The position numbers and the translations under genes are program-made. Below the pieces are notes generated by a model. It was not told the origin of the DNA. It saw only the letters and a program-made list of their open reading frames with translations, and did not search any database. A stretch of DNA of 49,191 bases from Spirosoma fluviale (GTDB lineage: Bacteria > Bacteroidota > Bacteroidia > Cytophagales > Cyclobacteriaceae), in NCBI GenBank assembly GCA_945868725.1, contig CAMBMU010000012.1:1-49191 (forward strand). The letters are read 5' to 3'. Below, in pieces: positions 16,805 through 46,774 of this stretch. Position 1 is the first letter of the stretch. The number at the start of each line of letters is the position of its first letter.

Positions 16805-16949
16805 GATCATCCACTTTTATACCTGTGATCAAAGAAAAAAAGATTTGAAGAATAGGAAAATGTGCTGTGGACTGTGGACTGTCGGCTGTCGACGATTATC
16901 CGCATTGGATAACAGTCTTATTGAGCCATTGGAAGATTAGCGGATAATC
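16805..16949 (+). repeat. Intergenic repeat element, copy 1
   Basis: The copy starts GATCATCC, runs through an A-rich stretch and a run of CTGTGGA-like units (16863-16893), and ends with the 56-bp palindromic core at 16894-16949 (GATTATCCGC ... GCGGATAATC). It fills the gap between the sppA terminator and the flavin reductase stop, ending 2 bases from the latter. Three other copies of the same layout occur in this window. Confidence 0.85.
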
Positions 16950-16951
16950 TA

Positions 16952-17845
16952 TTAGGGTTTTTGCAAAAGTATCTTCCAAGCCAATTCAAGATTACCGGCT
17001 TCCAGCTCTTCCTTAGCCCAGCGGTGTAGGTGATCGGTCCAGGACTCTGCATCCAACCGAAAGCGGCGCCTGATATCTTCCAGGTCTTCTCGGGCAGAAA
17101 AAAGGGCGAGCTCCTCCGGACTGGGTAGCTGCTCTACATTGCCCAATCTCCCTAGATTATTCCCGCTTAGTACCGAACTGTTCCGAATTTCTTCTGGAAT
17201 TTGATCTACCCCAATCCCAAGGGTCATCAAGGGCTTGGGAATCTGAAACAAAGAATCGGCCGTCACTCGGGTATACCAATTGCCCCCAAGTCTAGCTACA
17301 GGATCCAACTTGAGGGGCGCAATGGCTCCAGAAGCGTCAAGGATGTTTTCATCCAGGTGAATTTGTAGCACCTCACAAATCACCAAATTTCCAGCCCCTC
17401 CCTGATCGCCTAGGGGGAGCACCTGAAGCACCCTGCATTCAAAGGCCACTGCAGCCTCCTTTACGCGGGGTGGAGCTACTAGATTCGAAGGTACTGCAGT
17501 CAATCCTGCTTTAACAAATTCATTGACTCCCTTTGCATATTCGGTGCTAGCAAGGGACATCTGCTCTACTAAATCATGGCCAACCACATGAATCACCACC
17601 TCAGGTACCTGAAGTACATTCTCTAAGGTATGCTTGGTGGTATTGTCTCGCACTCTTCGCGAAGGAGAAAAAACAAGGATAGGGGGATTGGCACTAAAGA
17701 GATTAAAAAAAGAAAAAGGGCTCAAATTGACTTCCCCAGCTGTATTGACAGTGCTCGCAAAGGCAATCGGCCGAGGACTAATCGCCCCTTGCAAAAGGTT
17801 CTGAAGTTCAGGAGTGGATAAGTCTTTGGGATTGATCGTTTTCAT
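16952..17845 (-). CDS. Flavin reductase family protein (FMN-binding split barrel)
   Basis: The 297-residue protein matches flavin-reductase-like FMN-binding proteins (DIM6/NTAB type): ISPRPIAFASTVNTAGEVNLSPF near the start, then SFFNLFSANPPILVFSPS, RDNTTKHTLENV, and a Cys-containing strand AFECRVLQVLPLGD. These positions bind FMN and NAD(P)H in the family. An extra C-terminal helical section of about 80 residues follows the core. The reaction partner cannot be told from neighbours: it is divergent from a secreted phosphatase/nuclease by 62 bases, and its 3' end touches a repeat element. Confidence 0.88.
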   Translation of the reverse strand: MKTINPKDLSTPELQNLLQGAISPRPIAFASTVNTAGEVNLSPFSFFNLFSANPPILVFSPSRRVRDNTTKHTLENVLQVPEVVIHVVGHDLVEQMSLASTEYAKGVNEFVKAGLTAVPSNLVAPPRVKEAAVAFECRVLQVLPLGDQGGAGNLVICEVLQIHLDENILDASGAIAPLKLDPVARLGGNWYTRVTADSLFQIPKPLMTLGIGVDQIPEEIRNSSVLSGNNLGRLGNVEQLPSPEELALFSAREDLEDIRRRFRLDAESWTDHLHRWAKEELEAGNLELAWKILLQKP

Positions 17846-17907
17846 TTCATGAAATTAATAGGCAATTTTAAGAGATAGCAATCAATTCACGAATTAGTTT
17901 CCAATTT

Positions 17908-18750
17908 ATGGTTCTTCGACCTACGACCCTCCTCCTATCTTTGCTTTTGGTGCTACTTGCATATCCAATTGAAGCCCAAACTCACCGACTTGCTACCTTC
18001 AATATCCGTTGGGACAATCCTAACGATGTGGGCAATCTCTGGAAAGATCGTGCTACGCAGGTCATCCAATTGATTCAATTTCACCAGATTGGAATTGTAG
18101 GTACCCAAGAGGTATTGGCACATCAGCTGACTGAACTCAACAAAGGACTTGGCTTTGCCTCCATCGGAGTAGGCAGGGATGATGGAGCTACGAAGGGAGA
18201 GTTTTCGCCCATTCATTACGATCCTGCACGCTACAAATTGGAAGATTCGGGGACATTTTGGTTGTCACCTAGCCCAGAAGTCCCAAGCAAGGGATGGGAT
18301 GCTGCCCTGAATCGCATTTGCACCTGGGGAAAATTCACCTCCCTAGAAGGATCTCGGTTTTATGTCTTCAATGTGCACTACGACCATATCGGACAGCAAG
18401 CTCGAGAAGAAAGCAGCAAGTTGGTCCTTTCCAAAATCCAGGAAATCAACCGCGAAGGGCTTCCTGTGGTCTGGATGGGGGATTTCAATGTAGCCCCCGA
18501 AAACCCTGCCTACCAAGTGATTTTCAAAAAAGAAACCTGGAAAGATGCCCGTTTAGTCTCCAAGCTGCCCTCCTACGGTCCAAAAGGCACCTTTACCGCC
18601 TTCGAATGGGACCGAATGCCGGATGGGATCATTGACCATGTTTTTGTCCAAGGGAAACTCGAAGTACTCCGACATGGTATCCTAACAGACAATTACGGTA
18701 AAAAATACCCTTCGGACCACTTCCCCGTGCTGGTGGAAATCAGGTTTTAG
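17908..18750 (+). CDS. Secreted endonuclease/exonuclease/phosphatase family protein
   Basis: The 280-residue protein has a Sec signal ending near IEAQ (residue 24) and then an EEP domain (DNase I-like fold). Motifs in order are: TFNIRWDNPND (metal-binding Asn), VGTQEVL (catalytic Glu), YVFNVHYDHIGQQAREES (catalytic His), VVWMGDFNVAPENPAY (Asp/Asn), and DHVFVQ and KKYPSDHFPVLVEI (terminal His). The enzyme is periplasmic or secreted and could act on nucleic acids, phospholipid or sugar phosphates; the sequence alone does not decide. It ends at a strong bidirectional terminator. Confidence 0.92.
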   Translation: MVLRPTTLLLSLLLVLLAYPIEAQTHRLATFNIRWDNPNDVGNLWKDRATQVIQLIQFHQIGIVGTQEVLAHQLTELNKGLGFASIGVGRDDGATKGEFSPIHYDPARYKLEDSGTFWLSPSPEVPSKGWDAALNRICTWGKFTSLEGSRFYVFNVHYDHIGQQAREESSKLVLSKIQEINREGLPVVWMGDFNVAPENPAYQVIFKKETWKDARLVSKLPSYGPKGTFTAFEWDRMPDGIIDHVFVQGKLEVLRHGILTDNYGKKYPSDHFPVLVEIRF

Positions 18751-18808
18751 GGAATCTGTTAATAGTGGCAATTTTTTCAAGTTAGTTGGAAGCAATTCTA
18801 ACTAATTG

Positions 18809-18848
18809 AAAAAAAAAACCGATCTGAATGATTCAGATCGGTTTTTTT
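18809..18848. terminator. Bidirectional terminator
   Basis: A near-perfect palindrome AACCGATCTGAAT/ATTCAGATCGGTT around a single G, flanked by A and T runs, lies between the convergent phosphatase gene and the unknown lipoprotein gene and can serve both. Confidence 0.92.
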
Positions 18849-18865
18849 AATTCAGCAATTATCAA

Positions 18866-19978
18866 TTAGCCGCCAATATTCTTTGTTGTAGTCACACCAT
18901 TCACGGTGATGGTAATGGTTTGATTGGTGCAAGATCCGTTACCAAAATCCACGGTGATTTTATTGGTACGGTAAGCTGTCTCTAACTTACCCATAGTAGG
19001 GCCTCTTCTTTTTCCTGAACAGGAAAGGTCGATCTCGAGCGGGGTCATGGTCTGGTGCGCATAAATTACGGTACCAGAAGCAGTCTTAATCGCTGTTTTC
19101 ACATTGGTGATGATCTTACCACTAATTGGCTTTCGAGAATCATTCCCTCTGACCACCTCAGATTTTCTGTCCTTTTCGGAAGTCCAAACCCCTGTTTCTC
19201 CGCCTACAAAGATGAACTTGCCATTCGCGACAGTAGACTTCACACTTCCCTTGCCTGTAGCTTTATCAAACTCCGAAACAATGGTTTTTACGCCGCTGAT
19301 TTGAATTCCATTGACCACATAATTCTGAAATTCAACCTTCTCAGTCAACACAATCCCAACCTTAGTTCTGCTGACCATAATCACTCCTTTACGCGTGATA
19401 TCCTGATCATTTTTAGTAACGGTGACACCTGCACCAAAATCCACTTTTGACTTCACAATCAAACTCAATAATGAGTCTAATTCTGGGAATTGGTTGCCAC
19501 TATGTCCACCATGAGGGCCATCAACCGTGGTGGCCACAGGGAGCTCAACAACTTTTCCTGAAGCGTCATAATGGGTGATCGTTGCACCTCCTAATTTATA
19601 CATCCGGAATCCTCGAATATCGCCAGCACTTTCTGCTTCAACTATTGCAAGGATCTCATCATTTGGTGCAAGCAAATTCAAACCATCCATGATGCCTTTG
19701 TGCCCTCCTTTACCTTTATCCATTCCTTTCAAATCTCCTGGGGATTTAGCAGTTTCCTCTGTCCCTGCAACTCTACCCGTAATCGTTCCCGCTTGGAATG
19801 AATTCCCTCCTATAGTAAAGCTAGTGCCGCTGACCAACTGACCTGAGGTCTGGGCCAAATCAATCGCCGTGGTTCCTTCCAAAACATCTTCAGTGATGGA
19901 AGCTAATTCATCTTGCTCAGTACATGCAGCCATGAAAAGCAAGTACGACAGTAACAAAAGGTTTTTAAATAGTTTCAT
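18866..19978 (-). CDS. Unknown lipoprotein, 370 aa
   Basis: The signal ends LLFMAAC|T, a good lipobox, so the protein is predicted to be membrane-anchored. I do not recognise a family. After an acidic stretch (ITEDVLEGTTAIDLA) there is a Gly/Lys/His-rich loop (about residues 83-95), then beta-rich sequence with internal YEST-like strands and a Cys pair near the end (LSCSGKRRG and GNGSCTNQTITITVNG). The ending, a hydroxyl- and Thr-rich strand, is typical of exported beta-sandwich proteins. It follows the histidine kinase gene on the same strand after 119 bases that hold a long A/T tract, so it may be separately transcribed. Confidence 0.8.
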   Translation of the reverse strand: MKLFKNLLLLSYLLFMAACTEQDELASITEDVLEGTTAIDLAQTSGQLVSGTSFTIGGNSFQAGTITGRVAGTEETAKSPGDLKGMDKGKGGHKGIMDGLNLLAPNDEILAIVEAESAGDIRGFRMYKLGGATITHYDASGKVVELPVATTVDGPHGGHSGNQFPELDSLLSLIVKSKVDFGAGVTVTKNDQDITRKGVIMVSRTKVGIVLTEKVEFQNYVVNGIQISGVKTIVSEFDKATGKGSVKSTVANGKFIFVGGETGVWTSEKDRKSEVVRGNDSRKPISGKIITNVKTAIKTASGTVIYAHQTMTPLEIDLSCSGKRRGPTMGKLETAYRTNKITVDFGNGSCTNQTITITVNGVTTTKNIGG

Positions 19979-20062
19979 GTGATTTAGTTTTTAATGGTTA
20001 CAAGAAGTTTAAATTATGATGCCAAATACAGCCTCCAACATGAAGACAAAATGAAAAAATGA

Positions 20063-20088
20063 TTTTTTTTATTTTTTTTTAAAAAAAA
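20063..20088. repeat. Long homopolymeric A/T tract
   Basis: T8, A, T9, then A8 in a row between the histidine kinase stop and the lipoprotein start. The T and A runs are self-complementary. Such tracts bend DNA and are prone to slippage. Confidence 0.8.
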
Positions 20089-20097
20089 TTAGGCCAG

Positions 20098-21423
20098 TCA
20101 GAATTTAATTGGAAAACTAAAGCAAACCCGAGTTTTCCCTGTTTGGGATCCTATTTCCAAACTAACCCCTAGAAAAAGAGCAACTTTGTACATGATTTGA
20201 AGGCCAAATCCTGATTTTTCTTTGGACACATCCTTCAAGAACACCAACCCATTTTTTACCTGCTCGATTAACTTATCGTCGATTCCTGCTCCATCATTTT
20301 CGATCAAAATATCGTATCTATCCCCATTTTTTGTTCCTGAAAGGCTGATTTCACCGCCAGTTTCCACATACTTGACGGCATTACTCAGTGCATTTTGAAG
20401 CATCATCTGACATAGCGAAAGATTGGTGTCTGTGTAAGTAAAAGGATCAATTTTTCCTATTCTAATCTGTATGCCTTTTTCTTCTGCAATCTCGGTCCAG
20501 TCTTCGACTACCCCTTCTACAACCATTTTCAAATCGACAGTTTCGGATTTTAAAAATTGGGCATTGTTTACTTTAGAAATCAGAAGCAGGGCATTGACAG
20601 ATTTCTTCATCTTCTGCAAGGTGTCCTGCATATCCATTAACTTTTCGCTCTGGTAGGAATTGAGATTTTCATCCCTGAAAATGGCCTCCAATTTGGATTG
20701 CAGTATAGAAATAGGTGTCTTCAGTTCGTGAGAAGCGTGAGAAATAAAAATTCGTTCCTGATTAAATGACTTCTGAATTCGCTTCATCATCTCTGAAATC
20801 GCGTTATCTAGTAGCTCAAATTCTTTCGTAGTGCTTCGAATAGATTTGTCGTGAAACTCCTGTGGCTCATTAATCCGAGATATTTTGGATTGGATAATTT
20901 TATTGAACGGAGCCATAATCCGTTTACTGATGGCTGAGTCCAATAGAAATGAAAAGGCTAAAAATAAAAAAAGGATCCCCATGGCAATTTGAAAAAACAT
21001 GCCTTCAATTTTTTCAATCGTATTTAGGCTTCTGCCAATTTCAAGAAGGTAGCGACTGCCGGCTATTTCGATCACATCGTCAAGTACTCGGTAACTAATT
21101 TCTTCTTCCTCAATAATCCTTTTCTCACTAGAAATCTCTTCAGCGATCTCAAAATCCGCAGGGACTGCCTGTAACAAAATGTATTCTTCTTTTAGAATAT
21201 TATAGGAGCCAAATCCTTGTTCTGGATTTTCGTTAGAGATGAAATTTTCAATCCCAGCTTTTTGAATAAGCTTAACAACCTCTTCCTTTTTTGCAAGCAA
21301 TTCCTCATCTGTATTGTCAATGATGAGTTGGCTAAGCAAGTAGGGACTAAGCATTAAAAAAACTAGAAGGAAGATCCCTTTTCCCAAAAGATTAAAAACA
21401 AGGAGCTTATGAAATAATTTCAT
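20098..21423 (-). CDS. Sensor histidine kinase
   Basis: The 441-residue membrane kinase has two transmembrane helices (about residues 12-33 and 142-164) with a periplasmic sensor of about 105 residues between them that I do not recognise. A linker follows, then the HisKA domain with phospho-acceptor His in SHASHELKTPIS (about residue 232). The ATP-binding domain shows an N box (QNALSNAVKYVETGG), a G1 box (ENDGAGIDD) and a G2 box (KSGFGLQIMY). Its ATG overlaps the response-regulator stop by 4 bases (21420-21423), so the two are a coupled pair. The sensed signal is unknown; the outer-membrane and NRPGG-rich proteins earlier in the operon are candidates for the sensed or regulated component. Confidence 0.95.
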   Translation of the reverse strand: MKLFHKLLVFNLLGKGIFLLVFLMLSPYLLSQLIIDNTDEELLAKKEEVVKLIQKAGIENFISNENPEQGFGSYNILKEEYILLQAVPADFEIAEEISSEKRIIEEEEISYRVLDDVIEIAGSRYLLEIGRSLNTIEKIEGMFFQIAMGILFLFLAFSFLLDSAISKRIMAPFNKIIQSKISRINEPQEFHDKSIRSTTKEFELLDNAISEMMKRIQKSFNQERIFISHASHELKTPISILQSKLEAIFRDENLNSYQSEKLMDMQDTLQKMKKSVNALLLISKVNNAQFLKSETVDLKMVVEGVVEDWTEIAEEKGIQIRIGKIDPFTYTDTNLSLCQMMLQNALSNAVKYVETGGEISLSGTKNGDRYDILIENDGAGIDDKLIEQVKNGLVFLKDVSKEKSGFGLQIMYKVALFLGVSLEIGSQTGKTRVCFSFPIKF

Positions 21424-22094
21424 GCAATTATTTTATAGCCAAGTCCTCGAACCGTCTCCAACCAATCCACAGGTCCGAAACTCCCTAGTTTTTTTCGGAT
21501 ATTTTTGACGTGGACGTCTATGTAATTGGATTGATAGTCGTCATCCAAATGATCCCCCCATAGGTGCTCAGCCAATTGAAAGCGATTGAGAACGCGATTT
21601 TTGTTAATCAGCATAAACTGAAGTAAGATGTATTCCTTTTTGGTAAGCTTAATTTCTTGGCCTTCAAAGGAAATCAAGGGTTCATTCAAATGAATTTCGA
21701 AGCCTGCTAACTGAATCACATCTTTTTTCCAACCACTTTTTCTTCTAAGGATCGCCTGCATTCTTGCTTTTAATTCCAATAAAGAAAAGGGTTTGGAAAG
21801 GTAATCATCAGCACCACTTTCAAATCCTAAAAGTTTATCCCCTACTTCAGTTCGTGCTGTAAGGATAATGACGGAAGCATTTTCTTGGTACCTAGTTACT
21901 TCCTGTAGAAGATCTAGTCCATCTCCATCAGGCAATCCCAGATCCAGTAAGACAAAATCATACGAATTGACAGCCAAATTTTCAGAAGCTGCTTTTTTGG
22001 TACTTACCTCATCTAGCACATGGCTCTCAGATTGGAGGAAATCATGGATTTCCTTGGCAAGAGACCGCTCGTCTTCAACTAATAAAATTCTCAT
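21420..22094 (-). CDS. OmpR-family response regulator
   Basis: The 224-residue protein has a receiver domain with acidic pocket E7/D8, phospho-acceptor Asp51 in FVLLDLGLPDGDG, the Thr in VIILTAR and Lys in DYLSKPF, followed by a winged-helix DNA-binding domain (about residues 128-222: NRVLNRFQLAEHLWG, YIDVHVKNIRKKLG, VRGLGYKI). It is the partner of the kinase encoded next, with a 4-base overlap at its 3' end and another 4-base overlap with the outer-membrane gene at its 5' end. DNA targets are not visible from the sequence. Confidence 0.96.
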   Translation of the reverse strand: MRILLVEDERSLAKEIHDFLQSESHVLDEVSTKKAASENLAVNSYDFVLLDLGLPDGDGLDLLQEVTRYQENASVIILTARTEVGDKLLGFESGADDYLSKPFSLLELKARMQAILRRKSGWKKDVIQLAGFEIHLNEPLISFEGQEIKLTKKEYILLQFMLINKNRVLNRFQLAEHLWGDHLDDDYQSNYIDVHVKNIRKKLGSFGPVDWLETVRGLGYKIIA

Positions 22095-22915
22095 TTTGAT
22101 CTTTTTAGGGGAAGGGTATAACTAGCTTTGATGCCCAACTGAAAGCGAGCCGAAGAAGTATCGTATTCCGGAACTTGTGTAGGAATTACCCACCTCGGTT
22201 CCAACTGGAATTCTACTTTAGAATAGCTCAGTGTGATAGGAAGGGCCATTTCCAAGCCTTGGGCGGTAAAGCGCTGCGTCTCTAGGTATTGAGTTCTCGT
22301 AAACTCATAGCCCCCAATTCGGTAATAATTACTGGTTCCAAGAAATAATGAAAATCGGGGTTCAACCGATAAAATCCCTCCCCCAGTAATGGGCTGATCC
22401 AATTCGAAGTATCTGGAGTGGCGGCTACTTATAAAAAAGTCTCCAGGCGAATTCACCAAATACATCGCCTGAGTAGTCGAATAAAGTATTCCCCAATCTA
22501 GCCCAATTGTACCCTGGGCCATACCTAAATTATCCTGACCCGTTGAATTAAGATTGCTAGCACCAAAGAAATGGTGATACGAAAAGTCTATATCCAATTT
22601 GGAACTTAAGGGTTTAAAAAATCCAGCACCTACCCCTTTCTGCCAGGATAGGTCGGTCGTTAAAAATCTACTTAAAGTAGTAGACAAATAGACGCCTGAT
22701 CTGTGCCAAAAAAGAAGTTCAGTCGAGAAAATTGGAATTTTTTGACCAAAATCTCTGGACATAAAACTGGCTTTACTTTGAAATCCAGTACTAGCAATCA
22801 AGTAATTACCCGAATCAATAGCCACTGAGTCTCCCTTAGATTCCAATTCCTGAGCTGAACAAAGGTTTGCATAGAGCGCATGCAAAAGAAAAAGAAGGAC
22901 CAAACCTTTTTTCAT
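22091..22915 (-). CDS. Predicted outer-membrane protein in two-component operon
   Basis: The 274-residue protein has a Sec signal ending near CSAQ (residue 22; the Cys is not a clear lipobox) and then alternating aromatic/hydrophobic strands such as SGVYLSTTLSRFLTTDLSW, KLDIDFSYHHFFGA and FQLGIKASYTLPL, as in an outer-membrane beta-barrel of about 10-12 strands. I do not recognise a named family. Its stop overlaps the response regulator start by 4 bases. A structural protein coupled this tightly to a two-component pair suggests that it is sensed by, or takes part in, the same response. Confidence 0.75.
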   Translation of the reverse strand: MKKGLVLLFLLHALYANLCSAQELESKGDSVAIDSGNYLIASTGFQSKASFMSRDFGQKIPIFSTELLFWHRSGVYLSTTLSRFLTTDLSWQKGVGAGFFKPLSSKLDIDFSYHHFFGASNLNSTGQDNLGMAQGTIGLDWGILYSTTQAMYLVNSPGDFFISSRHSRYFELDQPITGGGILSVEPRFSLFLGTSNYYRIGGYEFTRTQYLETQRFTAQGLEMALPITLSYSKVEFQLEPRWVIPTQVPEYDTSSARFQLGIKASYTLPLKRSK

Positions 22916-22965
22916 TTTCTAAAGAGGTAAGAAAGGGGGTTGTAGCCAGAATTCAACATTACTAC

Positions 22966-23328
22966 TCAACCTCCTCCAGGACGATTCTTAGGCCCAGAAG
23001 GCCTGTTACCGGGTAATCGGATAGGTTGGCCTGCTGGAGCCGATGAAGGACGGGTGATAGGGCCTCCAGGTCTGTTTTTTGGAATCTTTCCATCAGGCCG
23101 ATTGGAAAGTGAAGCTCCATTTCCGTTAGCAGGTTTTGCTGCCCCGTCTCCCTGTATTTTAGGAGTTACTGTTCCAGGCATCGAACTCCTTCTCGAAGCA
23201 CTCGAAATCCCAACCTTCTTCCCACTTCCATTGGTACTGGTCGGGTTAGGTCTGTTTGCTGGCGGTGTTTGCGCCAACGCAATCCCAGAAAAAGAGAGAA
23301 AAGCAAGCAAGAATAGGATTTTAGTCAT
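22966..23328 (-). CDS. Small secreted Pro/Gly/Arg-rich protein with NRPGG repeats
   Basis: The 120-residue protein has a signal peptide ending ALAQ (residue 20) and a low-complexity mature part rich in Asn, Arg, Pro and Gly: NRPNP, NRPDG, NRPGG, NRPSG, NRPGGG. It is basic and predicted to be disordered. No domain is recognisable. It is the first gene of the run that continues with the outer-membrane protein, response regulator and kinase (51-base gap, then overlaps). The composition is consistent with a periplasmic peptide that binds an anionic polymer or plugs a barrel, but this is inference. Confidence 0.8.
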   Translation of the reverse strand: MTKILFLLAFLSFSGIALAQTPPANRPNPTSTNGSGKKVGISSASRRSSMPGTVTPKIQGDGAAKPANGNGASLSNRPDGKIPKNRPGGPITRPSSAPAGQPIRLPGNRPSGPKNRPGGG

Positions 23329-23386
23329 GAGGTAAAGGGATTTTTACGTTCGCAACTTCTGCAGGAAAGATGAAGAAAAGATGAAG

Positions 23387-23418
23387 AAATATGGCCATTA
23401 AAAAAAATGGTCATATTT
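23387..23418 (-). terminator. Possible hairpin downstream of pgk
   Basis: AAATATGGCCA pairs with TGGTCATATTT (one G-T pair) around an A-rich loop of 10 bases. It starts 8 bases after the pgk stop on the minus strand. The stem is AT-rich and the T run sits in the loop, so it is weak as a terminator. Confidence 0.35.
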
Positions 23419-23425
23419 ATTTAAT

Positions 23426-24625
23426 TTACTCTGCCAAGGCAGCCACACCTGGAAGTACTTTTCCTTCCATATGCTCCAGCAATGCCCCGCCTCCCGTAGA
23501 TACGTAGGATACTTGGTCTGTGTAGCCAAACTTATTCACCGCAGCAGCTGAATCTCCTCCACCGATAAGCGAGAAGGCTCCATTTCGTGTCGCCTCCGCT
23601 ACATATTCTGCGATGGCTTTGGTGCCTTTATCAAAAGACTCCATCTCAAACACTCCCATTGGACCATTCCAAAGGATAGTTTTGGATTCCAAAATTACTT
23701 TTCCAAACAGTTCTCTGGTCTTTGGCCCTATGTCCAAACCCATCCAATTGTCTGGGATCTCTCCCTTATTGACTAATCCCTGATTGGCGGTATTCGAAAA
23801 ATCATCTGCAATGACGGTATCCACAGGTAGAATCAAATTGACTCCTTTTGCCTTCGCCTTCTCCATCAATTCCAATACGAAGTCGAGTTTGTCTGCCTCC
23901 AAAAGAGAGGTGCCGATTGTTCCTCCCTGTGCCTTGGCAAAGGTGTAAGACATGCCTCCACCAATAATCAGATTGTCCACCTTCTCGAGGAGACGCTCAA
24001 TAATCAAGATTTTATCTGCAATTTTTGCTCCACCCATGATCGCAGTGTAGGGGCGCTCGGGATTGCCTAGCACCTTGTCTGCATTGGTCAACTCGGATTC
24101 CATCAGGTAACCAGCTACTTTTTGAGAGAAATTTGCAGCAATCACAGCTGTAGATGCATGGGCACGGTGTGCAGTACCAAAGGCATCGTTGACATATACA
24201 TCTCCGAGTTGAGCAAGCTTGGATGCAAAATCTGAATCACCTTTTTCTTCTTCCTTGTAAAAACGCAGATTTTCTAACAACAACACCTGACCTACACCAA
24301 GTTGTGCAGCCTTTTGAATGGCTTCCTCCCCAATGCAATCATTTGCAAAGCTGATTTTTTGTCCAAGAGCAGCCTCAATCGCTGAAATAATGTGCTTGAG
24401 GGAATACTTATCCTCTGGTCCTCCTTTGGGACGTCCTAGGTGAGACATTAAGATGGCGGATCCCCCATCTTTAAGAATTTTTTTGATCGTAGGAACTGCC
24501 GCCTGAATTCGGGTATCGTCAGCTACTTGCAGATGTTCGTCTAGAGGAACATTGAAATCAACGCGAATAAGGGCTTTTTTACCTGCAAAATTGAGGCTAT
24601 CTACATTTTTTACATTCAATGACAT
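23426..24625 (-). CDS. pgk: Phosphoglycerate kinase
   Basis: Pgk makes ATP and 3-phosphoglycerate from 1,3-bisphosphoglycerate in glycolysis and runs in reverse in gluconeogenesis. The 399-residue protein has normal length and landmarks: [21 protein letters not shown] at the start, [31 protein letters not shown], a Gly-rich ADP site [28 protein letters not shown], and [16 protein letters not shown] with the final THR-like region [14 protein letters not shown]. It is monocistronic, with a good upstream promoter and a wide separation from tsaC. Confidence 0.98.
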
Positions 24626-24673
24626 GGCTGATATCTAATAGGTGAGGACTAGGTTTTAGGTTAAAAATCGATA

Positions 24674-24705
24674 CAAATTTAAACCAAATCCAACCAATAC
24701 GAAAA
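24674..24705 (-). promoter_or_regulatory. Predicted promoter of pgk
   Basis: On the minus strand TTTT (24705-24702) is followed after 20 bases by TAAATTTG (24681-24674), a perfect -7 match. It sits 48 bases before the pgk ATG. Confidence 0.5.
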
Positions 24706-24724
24706 GATAGCTTGGAAAACTCCC

Positions 24725-26409: not shown

Positions 26410-26444
26410 AGGAGTATATTTTAAATAAAATTTAAGATTAGAAA

Positions 26445-27430: not shown

Positions 27431-27431
27431 A

Positions 27432-32005: not shown

Positions 32006-32147
32006 GATTATTCGCAATTGTTCCAGTGGTTCAATATGCGTGTTCTTTACTGCGAATAACTGTCAACAGACCTCAGTCCACTGCCCACTGCCCACTTTTC
32101 TGAATTTCAAACTTTAAGTTTTTCAGTAAGTGGTAAAACAGCTAATC
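32006..32147 (-). repeat. Intergenic repeat element, copy 4
   Basis: In its own orientation (minus strand) this copy starts GATTAGC, has an A-rich stretch, GTGGGCA/GTGGACT-like units and the 56-bp core at 32006-32061. The core has GATTATTCGC...GCGAATAACT, so one C-G pair of the usual stem is replaced by T-A. The core begins 28 bases upstream of the comEC ATG. Confidence 0.8.
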
Positions 32148-34830: not shown

Positions 34831-34831
34831 G

Positions 34832-34863: not shown

Positions 34864-34897
34864 CAACCCCATTCAAAACGGAATGGATCAATGTAAT

Positions 34898-34981
34898 GCC
34901 CAGATGGCGGAATTGGTAGACGCGTTGGTCTCAAACACCAATGAGGTTACACTCGTGCCGGTTCGACTCCGGCTCTGGGTA
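34898..34981 (+). tRNA. tRNA-Leu(CAA)
   Basis: The cloverleaf is visible: acceptor arm GCCCAGA/TCTGGGT, D arm containing TGGCGGAATTGGTAGACGC, anticodon stem TTGGT/ACCAA with loop CTCAAAC (anticodon CAA at 34932-34934), a long class II variable arm and a T arm GTTCGACTC. The discriminator is A (34981). The first acceptor pair is G-T, so the top of the stem is a wobble. CCA is not encoded. It reads UUG codons. Confidence 0.95.
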
Positions 34982-34985
34982 CAGA

Positions 34986-35112: not shown

Positions 35113-35145
35113 CTTTTTCAACCAGTACGACTAGTGGTGCAAGAA

Positions 35146-35620: not shown

Positions 35621-35623
35621 CCC

Positions 35624-36217: not shown

Positions 36218-36334
36218 TTTAAAAAAATAAGATGAAAAAACTTTTACTCCTGAATCAAAAAATCAAATAAAAAGAGTTGAATTGGTAGTCGCTCTAGAAT
36301 GAAATTAAGTGTTATTACTTTGTCAGCCTAGCGT

Positions 36335-38860: not shown

Positions 38861-39530
38861 GGGTATCCTCCTGTATTTTTCCGCCTTTGATATGAACTAT
38901 TCGTCTGGTTTTGGCTGCCAATTCCAAGTCATGAGTAACGAGCACGAGGGTAGTCCCCTGTTCTTTATTCAAATCAAAAATCAAATTCTCGATCATGGTA
39001 CCTGTCTCGGTATCCAAGTTGCCCGTAGGCTCATCTGCAAAAAGTATTTTGGGGGCATTCGCAAAGGCACGTGCAATTGAAACGCGTTGCTGCTCTCCAC
39101 CTGAAAGTTGTGTCGGATAATGCGTGGCTCGATCTTTCAGCCCTACCTTATCCAATAACTCCATGGCCTTTTCTTTCGCATCTTTTCTTTTCTTTAATTC
39201 CAAGGGCACCATCACATTTTCTAGCGCTGTAAGGGTTGGTAGCAACTGGAAATTTTGAAAAATAAAACCTACATCTCGGCTTCGCACTGCAGCACGCTGA
39301 TCTTCGTTTAAATTTTCAAGGGCTTCTCCATTGAGCACTACAGAACCGGTGCTGCTGGAATCAAGGCCTGCGCAAAGGCCAAGAAGGGTAGTTTTCCCAC
39401 TTCCTGAGGGTCCCACGATGGCGATGGTCTCTCCAGCTTGGATAGAAAAGGTTACCTGATCCAAGACGGTGAGCTTTCGGCTACCACTTTGATAGGTTTT
39501 ACTTACGTTTTGAAGGTCTAAAATGGACAT
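38853..39530 (-). CDS. ABC transporter ATPase, YbbA/LolD-like
   Basis: From ATG 39530 (the frame opens at a TTG 39542) the protein has 225 residues. Walker A is GPSGSGKTTLLG, the Q loop is in FIFQNFQLLPTLTALENV, the signature is LSGGEQQRVSIARAF, Walker B is ILFADEPTGNLD and the switch His is in LVLVTHDLELA. It is the ATPase of the adjacent permease. Together with the divergent TesA-like esterase upstream, this is the ybbP-ybbA-tesA arrangement known from E. coli. Confidence 0.96.
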   Translation of the reverse strand: MSILDLQNVSKTYQSGSRKLTVLDQVTFSIQAGETIAIVGPSGSGKTTLLGLCAGLDSSSTGSVVLNGEALENLNEDQRAAVRSRDVGFIFQNFQLLPTLTALENVMVPLELKKRKDAKEKAMELLDKVGLKDRATHYPTQLSGGEQQRVSIARAFANAPKILFADEPTGNLDTETGTMIENLIFDLNKEQGTTLVLVTHDLELAAKTRRIVHIKGGKIQEDTHA

Positions 39531-39605
39531 GAAGAGGATCAAAGAGTTGAAATGTCAAACGCTATTTTTACTTAATTTGTTAGCGGTTATTTAAATTACT
39601 TTGGA

Positions 39606-39703
39606 ATTCGCGTAAAGAAAACAAAATTACGCCATCTAAGCTTCACGCGTCGACAGATAGATCAAATTGATCGACCAAAGCAATACATTCGCGTAAAGAA
39701 AAC
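39606..39703. repeat. 17-bp direct repeats in the ybbA-tesA divergent region
   Basis: ATTCGCGTAAAGAAAAC occurs at 39606-39622 and again at 39687-39703, 81 bases apart. The 64 bases between include a GATCAA-ATTGATC type inverted repeat. No known binding site is recognised. Confidence 0.8.
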
Positions 39704-39749
39704 CACCCATACCCCATTATTGGGCTATTCAAAAGTTAAACGATTCGAC

Positions 39750-40427
39750 ATGAAATCATCAGGTACCAATTTCTCCTTTTACGTAGTTATTCTTTTGGCT
39801 GCATGGCTTACCTCTTGTAGCGGATCAACCGAAAAAAAGGAAGCAGAAGAAGGAAAACAAGAAGTAGATGCTACCCCTAAAAAGACCATTTTATTTTTTG
39901 GAAATAGCCTCACCGCAGGCTATGGAATTGACCCGGAAGAATCCTTTGCAGGGCGGATTCAGACCCGCTTGGATAGCTTGCAGAAAGAGTATCGCGCAAT
40001 CAACGGGGGTTTGAGTGGGGAAACTACCGCCGGAGGACTCAGCCGATTGGATTGGTTTTTGGAAGAGGAGCCTTATTTATTTGTGCTGGAATTGGGAGGA
40101 AATGATGGTTTGAGAGGTATTCCACTCACCGAAACCAAGAAAAATCTCCTTGCCATTGTAGACAAGGTTCGAGCCAAATATCCTAATACCAAAATCATCC
40201 TTGCAGGCATGCAGATCCCACCGAATATGGGGCAAGAATACACGGAAGAATTCAAAGCCATTTACCCTGCCGTGGCAAAGGAAAAAAACATTGAGTTGAT
40301 TCCCTTTCTTTTGGAGGGTGTGGCTGGAGATCCAGACTTAAACCTTCCTGATGGAATCCATCCGACAGCAGAAGGGCATCGCTTGGTAATGGAAACCTTA
40401 TGGCCCTATATTTCGAAATCACTTTAA
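39750..40427 (+). CDS. SGNH-hydrolase lipoprotein, TesA/arylesterase type
   Basis: From ATG 39750 (an in-frame TTG at 39720 is less likely) the protein has 225 residues and a lipoprotein signal ending AWLTSC|S. The four SGNH blocks are present: ILFFGNSLTAGYG (block I, nucleophile Ser in GNSL instead of GDSL), GGLSGETTAGG (block II), LELGGNDGLRG (block III) and DGIHPTAEGH (block V, Asp/His). It hydrolyses esters or thioesters in the periplasm. It is divergent from the ybbA-like gene, as tesA is in E. coli, supporting a joint envelope role. Confidence 0.92.
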   Translation: MKSSGTNFSFYVVILLAAWLTSCSGSTEKKEAEEGKQEVDATPKKTILFFGNSLTAGYGIDPEESFAGRIQTRLDSLQKEYRAINGGLSGETTAGGLSRLDWFLEEEPYLFVLELGGNDGLRGIPLTETKKNLLAIVDKVRAKYPNTKIILAGMQIPPNMGQEYTEEFKAIYPAVAKEKNIELIPFLLEGVAGDPDLNLPDGIHPTAEGHRLVMETLWPYISKSL

Positions 40428-40506
40428 TTCGTGTAGCCCATTACCTCGAAGGCTTTCATGGATACTCTTTTTTTCCTAGATTGGATTCAAATAAACCCTC
40501 TTTTTT

Positions 40507-42249
40507 ATGAGCTTTCAAATCAAAGAAGCCCCAGATAGCTACGACGTCATCATTGTTGGTTCAGGTGCTGGTGGAGGCATGGCCTCTAAAATTCTTTCCG
40601 AAGCCGGGCTTTCTGTTGCAGTAGTAGAAGCAGGTGGAGATTTTGACCCTGCCAAGGAAGAAGATAGAACCCAGCTTCGCCCACCCTGGGAATCTCCCAG
40701 AAGGGGTGCTGGTACTAAAATCCGCCCTTTTGGAGATTTTGATCAGGCCATCGGAGGATGGGAGATTGAAGGCGAGCCCTACACCCGCAAGGATGGGACT
40801 CAATTTGACTGGTTCCGATCCCGCATGGTGGGTGGACGCACCAACCACTGGGGGAGAATTTCTCTTCGCTTTGGCCCCAACGACTTCAAGCGCGCCAGCA
40901 TCGATGGCTTTGGTCATGATTGGCCAATTGGCTACGAAGATTTGAAACCCTACTACGACAAAGTAGATAAGCTAATCGGAGTTTTTGGTTCGAAAGAAGG
41001 TATATTTAACGAGCCAGATGGCTTTTTTCTTCCTCCCCCCAAGCCGAGACTACACGAACTTTTCATCAAACGAGGGGCAGACAAAGCAGGAATACCCATG
41101 ATTCCTGGAAGGCTTTCCATGCTTACCCGACCCATTAATGCGGAACGCGGAGTTTGTTTCTTCTGCAATCAATGCAACCGCGCTTGCCAGGCTTATGCAG
41201 ATTTTTCCTCAGGTACTTGCCTGATTCATCCTGCCATGAAAAAAGGAAAGGTAGACCTGTACACCTATTCCATGGTTCGGAAAGTGACTACAGATGAAAC
41301 TGGCAAAGCCAATGGGGTGTCCTTTGTCTCCAAGATGGATCGGAAGGAATACAAGTTAAAATCTCGAGTAGTGGTTCTGGGCGCCTCCGCCTGTGAGTCT
41401 GCACGTATCCTAATGAATTCCAAGTCAAAAGCTCATCCAGATGGAATAGGCGCTGACTCGGGCGTATTGGGCAGGTACCTCCATGACTCCACTGGCGCAG
41501 ATCGCATGGGTATTCTACCCGACCTGATCGACCGAGATCGCTACAACGAGGATGGCGTAGGCGGCATGCACATGTACACCCCCTGGTGGAAAGACAACAA
41601 GAAGTTAGATTTTGCTCGCGGCTACCACATTGAATATTGGGGAGGGATGGGACAGCCCGCCTACGGATCAGGAGGCAGCATGGATAGTATGCGGAAGTAC
41701 CTCAAAGATGAATTTGGTAATCCTAGCCCAAATGGTGGCTATGGAGCTGGCCTCAAAAAAGACATCCGCCGAATTTATGGATCGACCTTAGGAATGTCTG
41801 GGCGGGGAGAAAGTATCCCCCAGCACAGCAATTACTGTGAAATCGATCCGAATGTGGTCGACACCTATGGGATCCCAGTACTTCGTTTTCATTACAAATG
41901 GACAGACCAAGAAATTAAGCAGGCCAAACACATGCAGGATACTTTTGAGGAGATTTTGACCCAAGCTGGAGCCACTCTTTTGGGTTCCAAACCGGGCCCA
42001 GAAAGCAATTATGGACTTGCTGGTCCTGGAAGGATCATCCACGAAGTAGGCACTACCCGAATGAGCAACGATCCCAAATCAGGTGTCGTAAGTTCTGATT
42101 GCCAAGTACATGCCTGCAAAAACTTGTTTTTAGTGGATGCCGGACCTTTTGTGTCCCAAGCAGATAAAAATCCAACCTGGACGATTTTAGCCCTCTCCTG
42201 GAGAACATCGGACTACATCATCGAACAGCTCAAACAAAAAAATATCTAG
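40507..42249 (+). CDS. GMC-family FAD oxidoreductase, gluconate-dehydrogenase-like
   Basis: The 580-residue flavoprotein opens with the FAD-binding motif VIIVGSGAGGGMASKIL and AVVEAGGDFD, has RSRMVGGRTNHWGRI (FAD contact), and ends HEVGTTRMSNDPKSGVVSSD then VDAGPFVSQADKNPTWTILA, the GMC C-terminal signature. A Cys cluster, GVCFFCNQCNRACQ with TCLIHPA just after, may bind an iron-sulfur centre. It has no signal peptide, but the following gene encodes a Tat-lipoprotein partner, so it may be carried across the membrane in complex. It should oxidise a sugar or polyol. No cytochrome subunit follows. Confidence 0.92.
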   Translation: MSFQIKEAPDSYDVIIVGSGAGGGMASKILSEAGLSVAVVEAGGDFDPAKEEDRTQLRPPWESPRRGAGTKIRPFGDFDQAIGGWEIEGEPYTRKDGTQFDWFRSRMVGGRTNHWGRISLRFGPNDFKRASIDGFGHDWPIGYEDLKPYYDKVDKLIGVFGSKEGIFNEPDGFFLPPPKPRLHELFIKRGADKAGIPMIPGRLSMLTRPINAERGVCFFCNQCNRACQAYADFSSGTCLIHPAMKKGKVDLYTYSMVRKVTTDETGKANGVSFVSKMDRKEYKLKSRVVVLGASACESARILMNSKSKAHPDGIGADSGVLGRYLHDSTGADRMGILPDLIDRDRYNEDGVGGMHMYTPWWKDNKKLDFARGYHIEYWGGMGQPAYGSGGSMDSMRKYLKDEFGNPSPNGGYGAGLKKDIRRIYGSTLGMSGRGESIPQHSNYCEIDPNVVDTYGIPVLRFHYKWTDQEIKQAKHMQDTFEEILTQAGATLLGSKPGPESNYGLAGPGRIIHEVGTTRMSNDPKSGVVSSDCQVHACKNLFLVDAGPFVSQADKNPTWTILALSWRTSDYIIEQLKQKNI

Positions 42250-42252
42250 GCC

Positions 42253-42948
42253 ATGAATAGAAGAGAAAATCTAAAGCTACTCTTTGCAGGTTCGATTGGA
42301 GCAGGCTTATTGCTGGGCTGCGAGCCTGAGCAGGTCAAACTTAAGGGAGCGGTTCTTGGAACTCCCGGAGGGCGTACAGAAGAGGAAAAAGTACGCGATG
42401 CCAAACTCCTTGCGGAACGGTTTTTTACGGAAGACGAACTTAAAAAAATCACGACCCTAGTCGACCTCATTATGCCTGCCGACGAGCAATCCCCAGCAGC
42501 AACAGCCTTAGGAGTGCCTGATTTTATTGAATTTATGATGAAGGACCAGCCCAATATGCAAACACCCATGCGCGGTGGACTGATGTGGCTGGACTATGAA
42601 GCTCAGGAATTATTTGGTAAAGTTTTCAATGACTTGGAAGCTTCCCAAGTTCAGAAATTGATCGACCTCGTGGCCTGGCCAGAAAAAGCAAGCGAGGACT
42701 ACCAGGGTGGGGTACGCTGGTTCAATATGCTACGCAATCTCACCTGCTCAGGGTATTTTTCTACCCAAGCGGGCTGGACCTACATGGGCTACATGGGTAA
42801 CGTACCCAATGTTTGGGATGGAGTTCCTGCCGCGGTACTCACCAAGCATGGCCTCTCTAATCCTGAAAAGTATGCCGGAGTATACCTCAAACCAGAGGAA
42901 CGAAGTAAAGTTGCCGTCTGGGATGAAGCCGGCAACCTGATTGGCTAA
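42253..42948 (+). CDS. Gluconate 2-dehydrogenase subunit 3 family protein, Tat lipoprotein
   Basis: The 231-residue protein begins NRRENLKLLFAGSIGAGLLL followed by GC, combining a twin-arginine motif and a lipobox, so it is a predicted Tat-exported lipoprotein. The mature part, with FFTEDELKKITTLVDLIMPAD, PDFIEFMMKDQPN and a Trp/Tyr-rich C-terminus, is the subunit-3 family. It is 3 bases after the GMC gene. In gluconate dehydrogenases the small subunit carries the Tat signal for the catalytic subunit, and the same role is inferred here. Confidence 0.92.
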   Translation: MNRRENLKLLFAGSIGAGLLLGCEPEQVKLKGAVLGTPGGRTEEEKVRDAKLLAERFFTEDELKKITTLVDLIMPADEQSPAATALGVPDFIEFMMKDQPNMQTPMRGGLMWLDYEAQELFGKVFNDLEASQVQKLIDLVAWPEKASEDYQGGVRWFNMLRNLTCSGYFSTQAGWTYMGYMGNVPNVWDGVPAAVLTKHGLSNPEKYAGVYLKPEERSKVAVWDEAGNLIG

Positions 42949-43098
42949 GCTTTAGCCCTTTCAAAACTAGGCCCTTTTCTACCCATTCCATTTGGAATAA
43001 GGGACTGCTACCTTTTACCCCAACAAATAATCGGTTTATCTAATTTTAGATTCGAATCCATTCTGAATTCCTAACTTGAAGTTCATATTCAACCCACT

Positions 43099-45609
43099 AT
43101 GAAAAAATCAACCTTTGCCCTCCTGCTTGTTGGCGGGCTCCTATCCCTACAAGTTGGTGCTCAAACCATCCCCTCAACTTCAGAAAAAGCTCTTCAAGAA
43201 TCTATAAACAAACATAGCGCCCTGCTTTCCTCCTCGCCGCTGGCGGATTTTAAGGCTAAGAACGTGGGTCCTACCAATATGTCTGGTCGAATCATTGACA
43301 TTGAGGTAGCTTCAAATCCAAACACTTTTTATGTGGCTGCAGCTTCAGGTGGGGTTTGGAAAACCACTGACAATGGGCAGTCATTTGCACCTATTTTTGA
43401 CCATCAGGCGGCATTAGGTATAGGTGCTATGGCCCTGTCCAAATCCAATAATGAAGTACTCTGGGTAGGAACAGGAGAAAATAACTCCAGTAGATCCACC
43501 TATGCAGGTGCAGGCCTTTACAAATCAGTCGATGGCGGTAAAAGCTGGCAAATGATGGGCTTACTCCACTCCCAGCACACCGGGCAAATTCAAATTCACC
43601 CTACCAATCCCGACATCGTGTGGGTTGGTTCCATGGGTGGATTGTACTCCAAAAACAAAGAAAGAGGTCTCTACAAGACCATAGACGGGGGAAAAACCTG
43701 GAAAAAGGTGCTTTACATTGACGACAACACGGGCATCATTGACATCAAGGTTCATCCTACCAATCCAAACATACTTCTTGCAGCGAGCTGGGAACGGTTC
43801 CGCCAGGCACATGACTTTATAGGCAACGGCAAAGGCTCGACCATCTGGAGATCAGAGGACGGTGGAGATACCTGGAAAAAATCAGTGAGCGGATTCCCTC
43901 AAGATGAGTTCGTAGGCAGAATTGGATTTGATTTCAGTCTTTCAAGCCCAGAAGTAGTCTATGCACTCTTGGACAACCAGGGCAAGTCAAACAAACCGGC
44001 TCCTGCTCCAAGACAACGCCCTGGTGCTCAGCCGGAAGAAAATCCAATTAAGTTGGAAGAATTTTCCAGCATGACCCTCGATCAAGCCTTGGCCTTGGAC
44101 GACAAGAGATTGGAGTCATCTCTACGCAGAAACCAGTTTGCTAGCAAATACACTCCTGCAGAGCTGAAGCGCCAACTCAAGACGGGTAAAATCACTACTA
44201 CCCAAATTGCCAACTACCTAGGAGGCGCGGTGGATGCCAATGCAGCAATGTTTGGTGCTCCGATCAAAGGTGCAGAGGTATATCGATCCACGGATAGTGG
44301 AAAAAACTGGACTCTAGTATCTGAATCAGATATCAGCCAATTGTACAATTCCTATGGCTATTGGTTTGGAGAGATACGGGTAAGCACTGCCAACGAAAAC
44401 GAAATCTTTGTGCTAGGCGTACCGCTCTTGGTTTCTCGTGACGGTGGAAAGAACTTTTCCCGTACCGACTCCATCGGGAGACCTCACTCTGACCATCAAG
44501 CCATGTGGATCAATCCAAAAGACTCCAAGCACATCCTACTCGGGAACGATGGTGGTTTGTACAGAAGCTACGGCGGAGGTTCTCGTTGGGATCACTTAAA
44601 TACTCAGATGCCAATCTCTCAGTTTTATTCCATCATGGTGGATAATGCTACTCCTTACCACATCTATGGCGGCATGCAAGACAATGGGGTATGGTATGGC
44701 AAGTCCACCAATGCACCCGAGGATCCTTGGGAGTCCCTATATGGGGGGGATGGAATGGTCGTGGCAGTTGATACCCGCAACAACGACATCATCTACACCG
44801 GTTCACAATTTGGAAACTATGTCCGCATCAATAAAAAATCAAATGAGCGCAAGCGCATCACCCCAGGACACGATATCGGAAAGGCTCCAAACCGTTGGAA
44901 CTGGAGAACCCCAGCAGAGCTGAGCTACCACAACCAGGACATCGTCTACATGGGATCGCAGTACGTATATCAGTCATTAGATCAAGGGAATACCTGGACT
45001 ACGATCTCTCCAGATCTAACCAAAAATCAAAAAAGTGGTAATGTGCCTTTTGCTACCCTATCAGTAGTGGAAGAATCACCACTTGAATTTGGAACACTCT
45101 ATGCAGGAACAGATGACGGCAATGTCTGGGTAACGCGAAATAATGGAGGCAGCTGGACCAGCTTGAATGCTGGACTTCCCCAAGATCGATGGGTGAGCAG
45201 CATTTCTCCATCACAAGCAAAAGAAGGGCTAGTTTACATTACACTCAATGGCTACCGCTACGATGAGTTTACCAGCTATGTCTACAAAAGCGAAGACTAT
45301 GGCAAGACTTGGACTTCCATCGCTTCCAACCTTCCCAATGAGTCGGTGAATATCATCATTGAAGATCCAAAAGTGGCCAATATCCTGTATTTGGGTACAG
45401 ACCATGGATTGTATGTAAGTTTGGATTCTGGAAAAAACTGGAACCTATTCCAAGGCCAAATCCCGAACGTCGCCATTTATGATATGGTGATTCAAGAACG
45501 TGAAAATCACCTAGTGATTGGTACTCACGGCCGAAGTGTCTATGTGGTGGATCTGAAGCCCATCCACCAATGGGCTACTCCAGCACCTTTGGTAATGGAA
45601 AAAAAGTAA
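43099..45609 (+). CDS. Secreted BNR-repeat (sortilin/VPS10-like) protein
   Basis: The 836-residue protein has a Sec signal ending VGAQ (residue 22) and a long series of Asp-box (BNR) repeats: TTDNGQSF, SVDGGKSW, TIDGGKTW, SEDGGDTW, STDSGKNW, SRDGGKNF, SLDQGNTW, TRNNGGSW, SEDYGKTW and SLDSGKNW. This is the beta-propeller fold found in sialidases, xyloglucanases and VPS10/sortilin proteins. A Pro- and charge-rich insert lies at about residues 295-380. It lacks an obvious sorting domain at the C-terminus. Enzyme activity is unknown. A strong terminator follows. Confidence 0.92.
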   Translation: MKKSTFALLLVGGLLSLQVGAQTIPSTSEKALQESINKHSALLSSSPLADFKAKNVGPTNMSGRIIDIEVASNPNTFYVAAASGGVWKTTDNGQSFAPIFDHQAALGIGAMALSKSNNEVLWVGTGENNSSRSTYAGAGLYKSVDGGKSWQMMGLLHSQHTGQIQIHPTNPDIVWVGSMGGLYSKNKERGLYKTIDGGKTWKKVLYIDDNTGIIDIKVHPTNPNILLAASWERFRQAHDFIGNGKGSTIWRSEDGGDTWKKSVSGFPQDEFVGRIGFDFSLSSPEVVYALLDNQGKSNKPAPAPRQRPGAQPEENPIKLEEFSSMTLDQALALDDKRLESSLRRNQFASKYTPAELKRQLKTGKITTTQIANYLGGAVDANAAMFGAPIKGAEVYRSTDSGKNWTLVSESDISQLYNSYGYWFGEIRVSTANENEIFVLGVPLLVSRDGGKNFSRTDSIGRPHSDHQAMWINPKDSKHILLGNDGGLYRSYGGGSRWDHLNTQMPISQFYSIMVDNATPYHIYGGMQDNGVWYGKSTNAPEDPWESLYGGDGMVVAVDTRNNDIIYTGSQFGNYVRINKKSNERKRITPGHDIGKAPNRWNWRTPAELSYHNQDIVYMGSQYVYQSLDQGNTWTTISPDLTKNQKSGNVPFATLSVVEESPLEFGTLYAGTDDGNVWVTRNNGGSWTSLNAGLPQDRWVSSISPSQAKEGLVYITLNGYRYDEFTSYVYKSEDYGKTWTSIASNLPNESVNIIIEDPKVANILYLGTDHGLYVSLDSGKNWNLFQGQIPNVAIYDMVIQERENHLVIGTHGRSVYVVDLKPIHQWATPAPLVMEKK

Positions 45610-45623
45610 ATCAAATCCTACAC

Positions 45624-45662
45624 AAAAAGCCCTTCCAAAATTGAATTTGGAAGGGCTTTTTT
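45624..45662 (+). terminator. Terminator of the BNR-repeat gene
   Basis: A perfect 16-bp stem (AAAAAGCCCTTCCAAA and complement) with a 6-base loop and T run, 14 bases after the stop. Confidence 0.92.
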
Positions 45663-45705
45663 AATTAAACTACATTAATCCTGAGAAGTGTGGATCAAAA
45701 AATAT

Positions 45706-45886
45706 GAATATCCGCTTCCTTACCAGTATCAAAAGAAAACAAGATTTGAGGTTCGTTTAAGTGAGCTGTGGTCCGTGAACAGCCAGTAGGCCGTGGCCTA
45801 TCGTCTGCCTGCAGACCGTGGTCTGTGGTCGATTATCCGCAGTAGTTGACGCTTCTATTAAGCCGCTGACATGATTGCGGATAATC
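45706..45886 (+). repeat. Intergenic repeat element, copy 2
   Basis: The longest copy at 181 bp. It starts GAATATCCGCTT, has ACCAGTA and GTGAGCTGTGG blocks, an expanded run of GTGGTC/GTGGCC-like units (45765-45830) and the 56-bp core at 45831-45886. It ends 3 bases from the stop of the outer-membrane protein gene. Confidence 0.85.
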
Positions 45887-45889
45887 CAA

Positions 45890-46489
45890 TTAGAATAATT
45901 TAAATCCAACCGAAAGCACCCATTGGTTGAGTCGGTTATCCGCGGTGTAGGAACCAACATTCTCCGTAAATTTACTAAGCCCCCCTTCGTATTTTCCTTC
46001 AATGGATAGGTTGCCTAGATCCACACCGACCCCAGCTTGGTAGCCGAAAGTTGCATTTTTGAAATCGATATTTTGGACCGTTTTTCCTGCATCCTTGAGC
46101 GAGGAGTCTATATTGAAACTAGCGATCGGTCCTGCCATCACTCGAATGATTTTGAGCATTTTAAATCCTGCCATTACGGGTACATCCAAGCGGTTAAACT
46201 TAGCTTCGTATTGAGTTGGAGAAACACTACTTAGTGGAGGCAATTCAAGCTTAAATTTTCCGCTAGTCTGTGTAAACAATACCTCCGGCTGAACAAAAAA
46301 TCCAACCCCACCAAACCGAGCAAACACCCCTAGGTGATACCCCATTTGCGCATCGCTAGGAACAAGCTGCTCTCCTTCGAAATTTACTTGCGTACTACTC
46401 AATCCCCCTTTGATACCAAACCCATTTTTTTGGGCATATAGGGAGAGTGAACTCAGGGTAACTAAGACAATTAAAGCTAGCTTTTTCAT
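45890..46489 (-). CDS. Outer-membrane beta-barrel protein (porin family)
   Basis: The 199-residue protein has a Sec signal ending LYAQ (residue 20), then GFGIKGGLSSTQVNFEG and strands such as GVGFFVQPEVLFTQTSG, FGYQAGVGVDLGNLSIEGKY and WVLSVGFKLF. It ends in Phe, as usual for assembled barrels. It belongs to the same broad small-barrel class as 2771-3376. Both sides are bounded by copies of the repeat element in inverted orientation. The promoter region holds an imperfect palindrome ACGTACA...TGTACGT (46529-46577). Function is unknown. Confidence 0.88.
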   Translation of the reverse strand: MKKLALIVLVTLSSLSLYAQKNGFGIKGGLSSTQVNFEGEQLVPSDAQMGYHLGVFARFGGVGFFVQPEVLFTQTSGKFKLELPPLSSVSPTQYEAKFNRLDVPVMAGFKMLKIIRVMAGPIASFNIDSSLKDAGKTVQNIDFKNATFGYQAGVGVDLGNLSIEGKYEGGLSKFTENVGSYTADNRLNQWVLSVGFKLF

Positions 46490-46636
46490 GGTCCATCAGA
46501 TTTAGTTGTAAAATTAAAGTAGAACTACACGTACAATTCTTCTGCCAAAACGAAGCAAGAAGAACTTTAGTGTACGTTTTTTTTGAATTAATAGTTACAC
46601 AGGCCTGAATTGAGGCCAAGAAGGATACTAGAATAT

Positions 46637-46774
46637 GATTATCCGCAATTACACCAGTAGCTTAAGATTTCTTTGAATGACTGCGGATAATCTTCGACAG
46701 ACCACGGTCCACAGCTCACTTACTTGAACTTCAAAACTTATTTTCTTTCGGTACTGGTTAAAAAGCGGATAATC
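46637..46774 (-). repeat. Intergenic repeat element, copy 3
   Basis: In minus orientation this copy starts GATTATCCGCTT (46774), has ACCAGTA and GTGAGCTGTGGACC, and ends with the 56-bp core at 46637-46692. Its core side faces the barrel gene, so it is inverted relative to copy 2 on the other side of that gene. Confidence 0.85.

Follow-up and report, generated by a model that had tools for sequence, protein, structure and literature searches.

A probable IS1595-family MITE with a third copy of its end inside, in an Algoriphagus-type genome and its relatives

The intergenic repeat described here is a gene-less mobile element of roughly 150 bp with a third copy of its end inside, facing the right end across 54-58 bp, and it is very probably (probability about 0.88) a MITE of the IS1595 insertion-sequence family, moved in trans by a transposase made elsewhere. 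Transposase supplied in trans would bind the two outer ends (a 13-bp tip, then CCAGTA) and would insert the bound segment at A/T-rich sites, where 8 bp would be duplicated. In this account the 56-bp core has as its right half the right end of the insertion sequence, which would come from the final codons and the stop of the transposase gene. IS1595 elements and MITEs, including ones with tandem arrays, are already known. The unusual features of this repeat are the third, inner end at its characteristic distance from the right end and an array of heptads of stepped length, and no description of the family was found in the open-access literature searched. A repeat that is abundant between the genes of Algoriphagus and related genera is thereby identified and given a likely driver, and the breaking of assemblies at repeats of this kind is explained. 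The inner end, with its near-fixed spacing, offers a testable case of an extra end within a MITE, and since no intact partner is visible in core-rich genomes, one may ask what moved their copies last.

Copies and anatomy of the repeat

The source assembly is a 2.81-Mb Algoriphagus-type draft, 82% complete, of which the window, meaning the whole stretch of DNA analysed (49,191 nucleotides), is contig 12. The original prediction described a four-copy family with a fixed 56-bp core, thought to be a maintained folded structure, and with MITE-like inverted outer ends; it proposed a search for further copies, for empty sites in relatives and for a transposase with matching ends. All four intervals were confirmed (Table 1): a profile search of the window recovered them with E values of 8e-39 to 3e-24 and returned no fifth strong match, and the core is 56 bp long in 4/4. 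The repeat profile was built on 37 copies from the same genome, and the window copies may be among the 37, so the search is a coordinate check and not an independent discovery. Copy 1 lies between an SppA-like gene ending at 16754 and an ORF on the minus strand (16952-17845). The sole Rfam match in the window is a tRNA gene at 34898-34981.

Table 1. Copies of the repeat in the window and their parts
Feature	Positions	Strand	Basis or remark
MITE copy 1, whole element minus the 3 outermost bp per end	16805..16949	+	profile match 16805-16949 (+)
Heptad array of copy 1, 30 bp	16864..16893	+	sequence reading, segment lengths
Core of copy 1	16894..16949	+	inner end 16894-16903 facing right end 16940-16949
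MITE copy 2, reversed, left end decayed	32006..32147	-	profile match 32147-32006 (-)
Core of copy 2	32006..32061	-	same C-to-T change in both tips
MITE copy 3, heptad array long	45706..45886	+	profile match 45707-45886 (+; envelope from 45706)
Heptad array of copy 3, 66 bp	45765..45830	+	sequence reading, segment lengths
Core of copy 3	45831..45886	+	sequence reading, core pattern
MITE copy 4, reversed, all three tips perfect	46637..46774	-	profile match 46774-46637 (-)
Core of copy 4	46637..46692	-	right end 46637-46646, inner end 46683-46692
Heptad array of copy 4, 23 bp	46693..46715	-	sequence reading, segment lengths

The family is much larger than four copies. The core pattern (GATTATCCGC-N36-GCGGATAATC, at most 3 mismatches) has 69 matches in the genome versus 0 for the reversed-pattern control, so that the core repeat is not a product of chance; at least 69 core copies are present in this genome, and many further copies, here and in relatives, keep the length and ends of the core. 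The commonest core length is indeed 56 bp, but it is not invariant: the 78 distinct cores of the fetched own-genome loci measure 56 bp (62 cores), 55 bp (7), 57 bp (5), 54 bp (3) or 58 bp (1). Nor is a fixed length peculiar to the core: of 93 copies from other genomes, 52 have a total length of 145 or 146 bp. A small number of those 93, including the 216-bp row of L216 and the 209-bp row of L241, are mispairings of neighbouring elements.

Read in element orientation, the repeat consists of a left end, T(C/A)TGATTATCCGCTTTTTCACCA(C/G)TA, an A-rich stretch, TTTGAGGTTCAATTAGGTGAG, an array of 7-bp TGTGGAC-like heptads, the core (GATTATCCGCAGT...CTACTGGCATGATTGCGGATAATC) and a final ATA, and the target duplications indicate that it reaches 3 bp past GATTATCCGC at both ends. 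The outer ends are laid out as a 13-bp tip, TNTG(A/T)(A/T)TATCCGC, with CCAGTA 6-7 bp further in. The repeat is thus short, at about 145 bp, has 69 cores in one genome and carries no transposase gene. The heptad array varies in steps, its 55 distinct segments measuring 30 bp (32 segments), 48 bp (12), 23 bp (4) or 66 bp (2), with single arrays of 16, 20, 35, 41 and 108 bp, the last two or three of which are doubtful. Folding of the array into hairpins was considered and set aside: some long variants are hairpin-like, but the set as a whole is unconvincing (mean folding z -0.69 over the 55 distinct segments, 29% of them under -1).

Two known elements share this modular plan. The BrickBuilt MITE of Porphyromonas gingivalis is likewise a MITE of Bacteroidota in which two end modules enclose a tandem array, but it has IS5-family ends, 23-nt repeats, 19 copies in one strain and duplications of variable length, and the available part of its description mentions no inner third end (PMC4596501). 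BOX elements of Streptococcus pneumoniae resemble the repeat in their fixed end modules around a variable tandem module, their inverted ends, their target duplications and their excess between convergent genes, but differ in having an unrelated host and sequence, a predicted RNA fold and, in the part of the description available, no known IS1595 link (PMC3049150).

Mobility and matching insertion sequences

In 69 own-genome elements, the best fit of the flanks is a duplication of 8 bp that begins 3 bp beyond each GATTATCCGC, with a match of 69% versus 41% between flanks of different copies, a few of the left ends being doubtful. In other genomes, at least 7 of the 8 flank positions match in 53 of the 93 elements, where 1.2 would be expected. 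The inverted outer ends foreseen by the original prediction are accordingly accompanied by target-site duplications of 8 bp, and the empty sites that it proposed to look for were found for three of the window copies. Copy 4 is missing in 4/4 of the relatives aligned and copy 3 in 5/5; both are absent from two relatives (G035 and G050) that are 92-95% identical at this stretch, and no profile match occurs in the 19 relatives' loci fetched for it, not all of which cover the sites. Copy 2 is missing in G011 and G048, and profile matches at the same place in G012, G057, G020 and G003 identify it as an older insertion. Fairly recent movement is suggested by cores of identical sequence, present at four places in the own genome and seven in G016. 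Judged by sequence, the repeat has evidently moved and duplicated its target sites.

Insertion sequences with the same ends occur in the genus of the MITE host. Four of these, 1.04 kb long (L255-L258, from G052, G031, G056 and G015), have one end of the form TATGATTATCCGC..CCAGTA and a second, unlike end of the form TATGTATATCCG(C/T)..CCA(G/T)TA(A/G)CC, and three of the four have perfect 8-bp duplications, L256 having none. The first end is shared with another genome (L261 of G019), and the second is also the MITE left end in G016 and G043 (TNTGTATATCCGCTTT..CCAG(T/C)AGCC), giving the same unlike pair. The match of both MITE ends to insertion sequences of the same genus is thus apparent at the nucleotide level, and the sought transposase with matching ends is a DDE enzyme of the IS1595 family. 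Its proteins (310 aa in L255, 308 aa in L257) match PF12762 and NF033547 above cut-off, with a zinc-ribbon domain scoring just below the Pfam cut-off, and both terminate in YPYWYDCG; the right end of the insertion sequence overlaps the stop region of the transposase gene, encoding the last residues and the stop.

Searching viral contigs for the right end yielded three loci. One viral contig carries a 2.3-kb element (L250) with MITE-type ends and a perfect 8-bp duplication, which encodes an IS1595 transposase and a BRO-N protein; this transposase has matches in 35 of the 97 genomes of the relatives' set (59 of the same genus, own genome included, and 38 others), and L255-L258 are four of those matches. 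The element (L250:415-2721) lies between two ORF halves, which by motif are presumably those of one DNA methyltransferase gene. Apart from L250, attempts to recognise long autonomous elements by pairing distant tips in the fetched loci yielded only chance pairs.

ISApl4, of the IS1595 family, likewise has A/T-rich 8-bp duplications and inverted ends of similar size, and an IS1595 transposase as in the inferred partner of the MITE; the MITE is unlike it in being gene-less, with a heptad array and a third inner end, and the ends of ISApl4 start GGGGCTGTAC, according to the part of its description available (PMC12561309).

The inner end, the mover and the core

The inner end would most likely be the distal end of an earlier minimal MITE, ~60 bp long and now nested within the larger element, its spacing dictated by the distances that the transposase complex tolerates, a reading to which about even odds are given. 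The main rival to the nested MITE, somewhat less probable, sees in the inner end a neutral relic left from the element's formation, with fixed lengths inherited from a recent ancestor. All copies have one layout in common, as expected of such a relic, and the contrast between the inner and outer left tips is weak: in 30 copies taken without the core filter, the inner tip is less changed in 13, more changed in 4 and equal in 13 (p 0.049; mean changes 0.67 for the outer left and 0.37 for the inner tip), in a noisy alignment where the aligner miscounts some end tips. The first contrast, drawn on copies already passed through the core filter, had been stronger, with the outer left tip the more changed in 14 copies and the inner tip in 2 (p 0.004; means 1.13 versus 0.47), and its weakening without the filter lowers the odds of a selected inner end and raises those of a neutral relic. 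The indication that the inner end is better kept than the outer left end is weak. Against a relic, however, of 57 own-genome elements anchored at the right end and bearing heptads (loci mostly core-selected), 52 have an inner end with no more than 2 mismatches and 45 an exact one, and core length holds at 54-58 in most Algoriphagus and Belliella loci despite a much changed interior.

The mover of the MITE would be a transposase of the L255-L258 type, or a close relative that has since disappeared. Among the 13 genomes with at least 5 exact cores, none showed an intact transposase flanked by matching ends: the IS1595 copies of the own genome and G005 are of the TATGTGTATCCG..GCACGTA type or another end type, G009 has a broken transposase beside a matching end, no transposase copy examined in G016 and G043 has matching ends, and the other eight genomes have no match to the L250 transposase. 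Conversely, the exact core is absent from the five genomes that carry a matching insertion sequence. In the own genome, at 82% completeness, no intact matching partner was found; the copies examined have other end types, and some matches end at contig ends. Several of these IS1595 copies with other end types (L283, L284 and L285) are truncated at contig ends, and the ends in L284 and L285 are of the form TATGTGTATCCG..GCACGTA. It is unlikely that the present mover belongs to a different IS1595 subgroup such as this TATGTGTATCCG type, which is present in the own genome and G005 and whose transposase (L283) is 54% identical to that of L257, but whose ends differ from those of the MITE in the tip and in having GCACGTA in place of CCAGTA.

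A still less likely proposal is that the inner end is under selection and that the transposase can join the right end to the outer left end or, alternatively, to the inner one; the core would then act as a built-in alternative or decoy partner tuning transposition, and the three-site layout (about 89 + 56 bp) would have been kept across Algoriphagus and Belliella.

The maintained folded structure of the original prediction finds no support in the core interior, where sequence at certain positions and spacing are kept instead. Pairing in the nested columns 11-46 to 16-41 is about as frequent as in shuffles, and no covarying base pair stands out in the interior; RNAalifold returned no structure at all, tips included, and was hence not relied on. 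A host function of the core, for example in termination, as a structured RNA or hairpin whose palindrome is kept for that purpose and was merely spread by transposition, is accordingly improbable. The inner and right tips do pair over 10-13 bp (mean core folding energy -17.9), and matching changes in both tips number 4 versus about 0.7 expected among own-genome hits, two of them doubtful and low-scoring; such paired changes, found in few copies including window copy 2, are too few to decide. The T-rich DNA 3' of the right end would suit a terminator, but this flank is the target duplication, and the copies have no Rfam match. Gene context, with ORFs called by a simple length rule, is divided: among 75 own-genome copies with enough flank, the 34 between tandem genes lie mostly along the gene direction (26, with 8 against), as a terminator might, but 24 lie between convergent and 13 between divergent genes (2 others are inside ORFs and 2 lack two flanking ORFs).

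Short, intergenic, palindromic and multicopy, the repeat could also be read as a REP/BIME-type repeat moved by a Y1 (RAYT) transposase, a reading that is very hard to sustain given the clear 8-bp target duplications, which are not expected of Y1 enzymes, and the existence of a DDE insertion sequence with the same ends.

Distribution and flanking sequences

The exact-tip core is present in 20 of the 97 genomes, all of the same genus (20/59, own genome included, versus 0/38 others). Of 395 genomes of the phylum, two, again from the genus of the source, carry the exact right-end pattern. A scan of GTDB 220 gave at least 104 stretches, in Algoriphagus, Belliella, Cognataquiflexum, Mongoliitalea and related MAGs, with some Prevotellaceae and other Bacteroidales, as 50-69-bp palindromes with the same tips, among the matches listed. 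Rows with both ends number 16 in Belliella (two mispaired), 2 in Cognataquiflexum and 0 at the single Mongoliitalea locus. Six loci outside Bacteroidota that the GTDB scan also matched (L155, L167, L188, L205, L223 and L233) were taken for chance.

An intrinsic-terminator-like hairpin lies within 70 bp outside the left end in 11 of 55 own-genome copies (for example window 16775-16804), and in 11/55 for the other direction, versus 1 and 2 of 55 right flanks, 17/1500 random and 5/1100 shuffled sequences. The corresponding counts elsewhere are 7 and 7 of 93 left flanks versus 4 and 3 of 93 right flanks; with the signal this weak in other genomes, insertion beside intrinsic terminators is not claimed.

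At the loci of G055 (L112-L125), 12 of the 14 listed cores are 16-66 bp from a contig end, and the repeat seems to break the assembly of this genome.

Minimal palindromes of 52-63 bp with MITE tips and duplications of 7-8/8 bp occur in other Bacteroidota (L146 and L189). Of 34 solo cores listed, many of which are wrongly oriented full elements or chance, four (L071, L146, L163 and L189) have a duplication of at least 7/8, where 0.06 would be expected. Prevotellaceae and Prevotella MAGs (L146, L148, L158, L171 and L245) contain 63-65-bp palindromes with the same tips, some of them nearly perfect, and that of L146 has a perfect 8-bp duplication.
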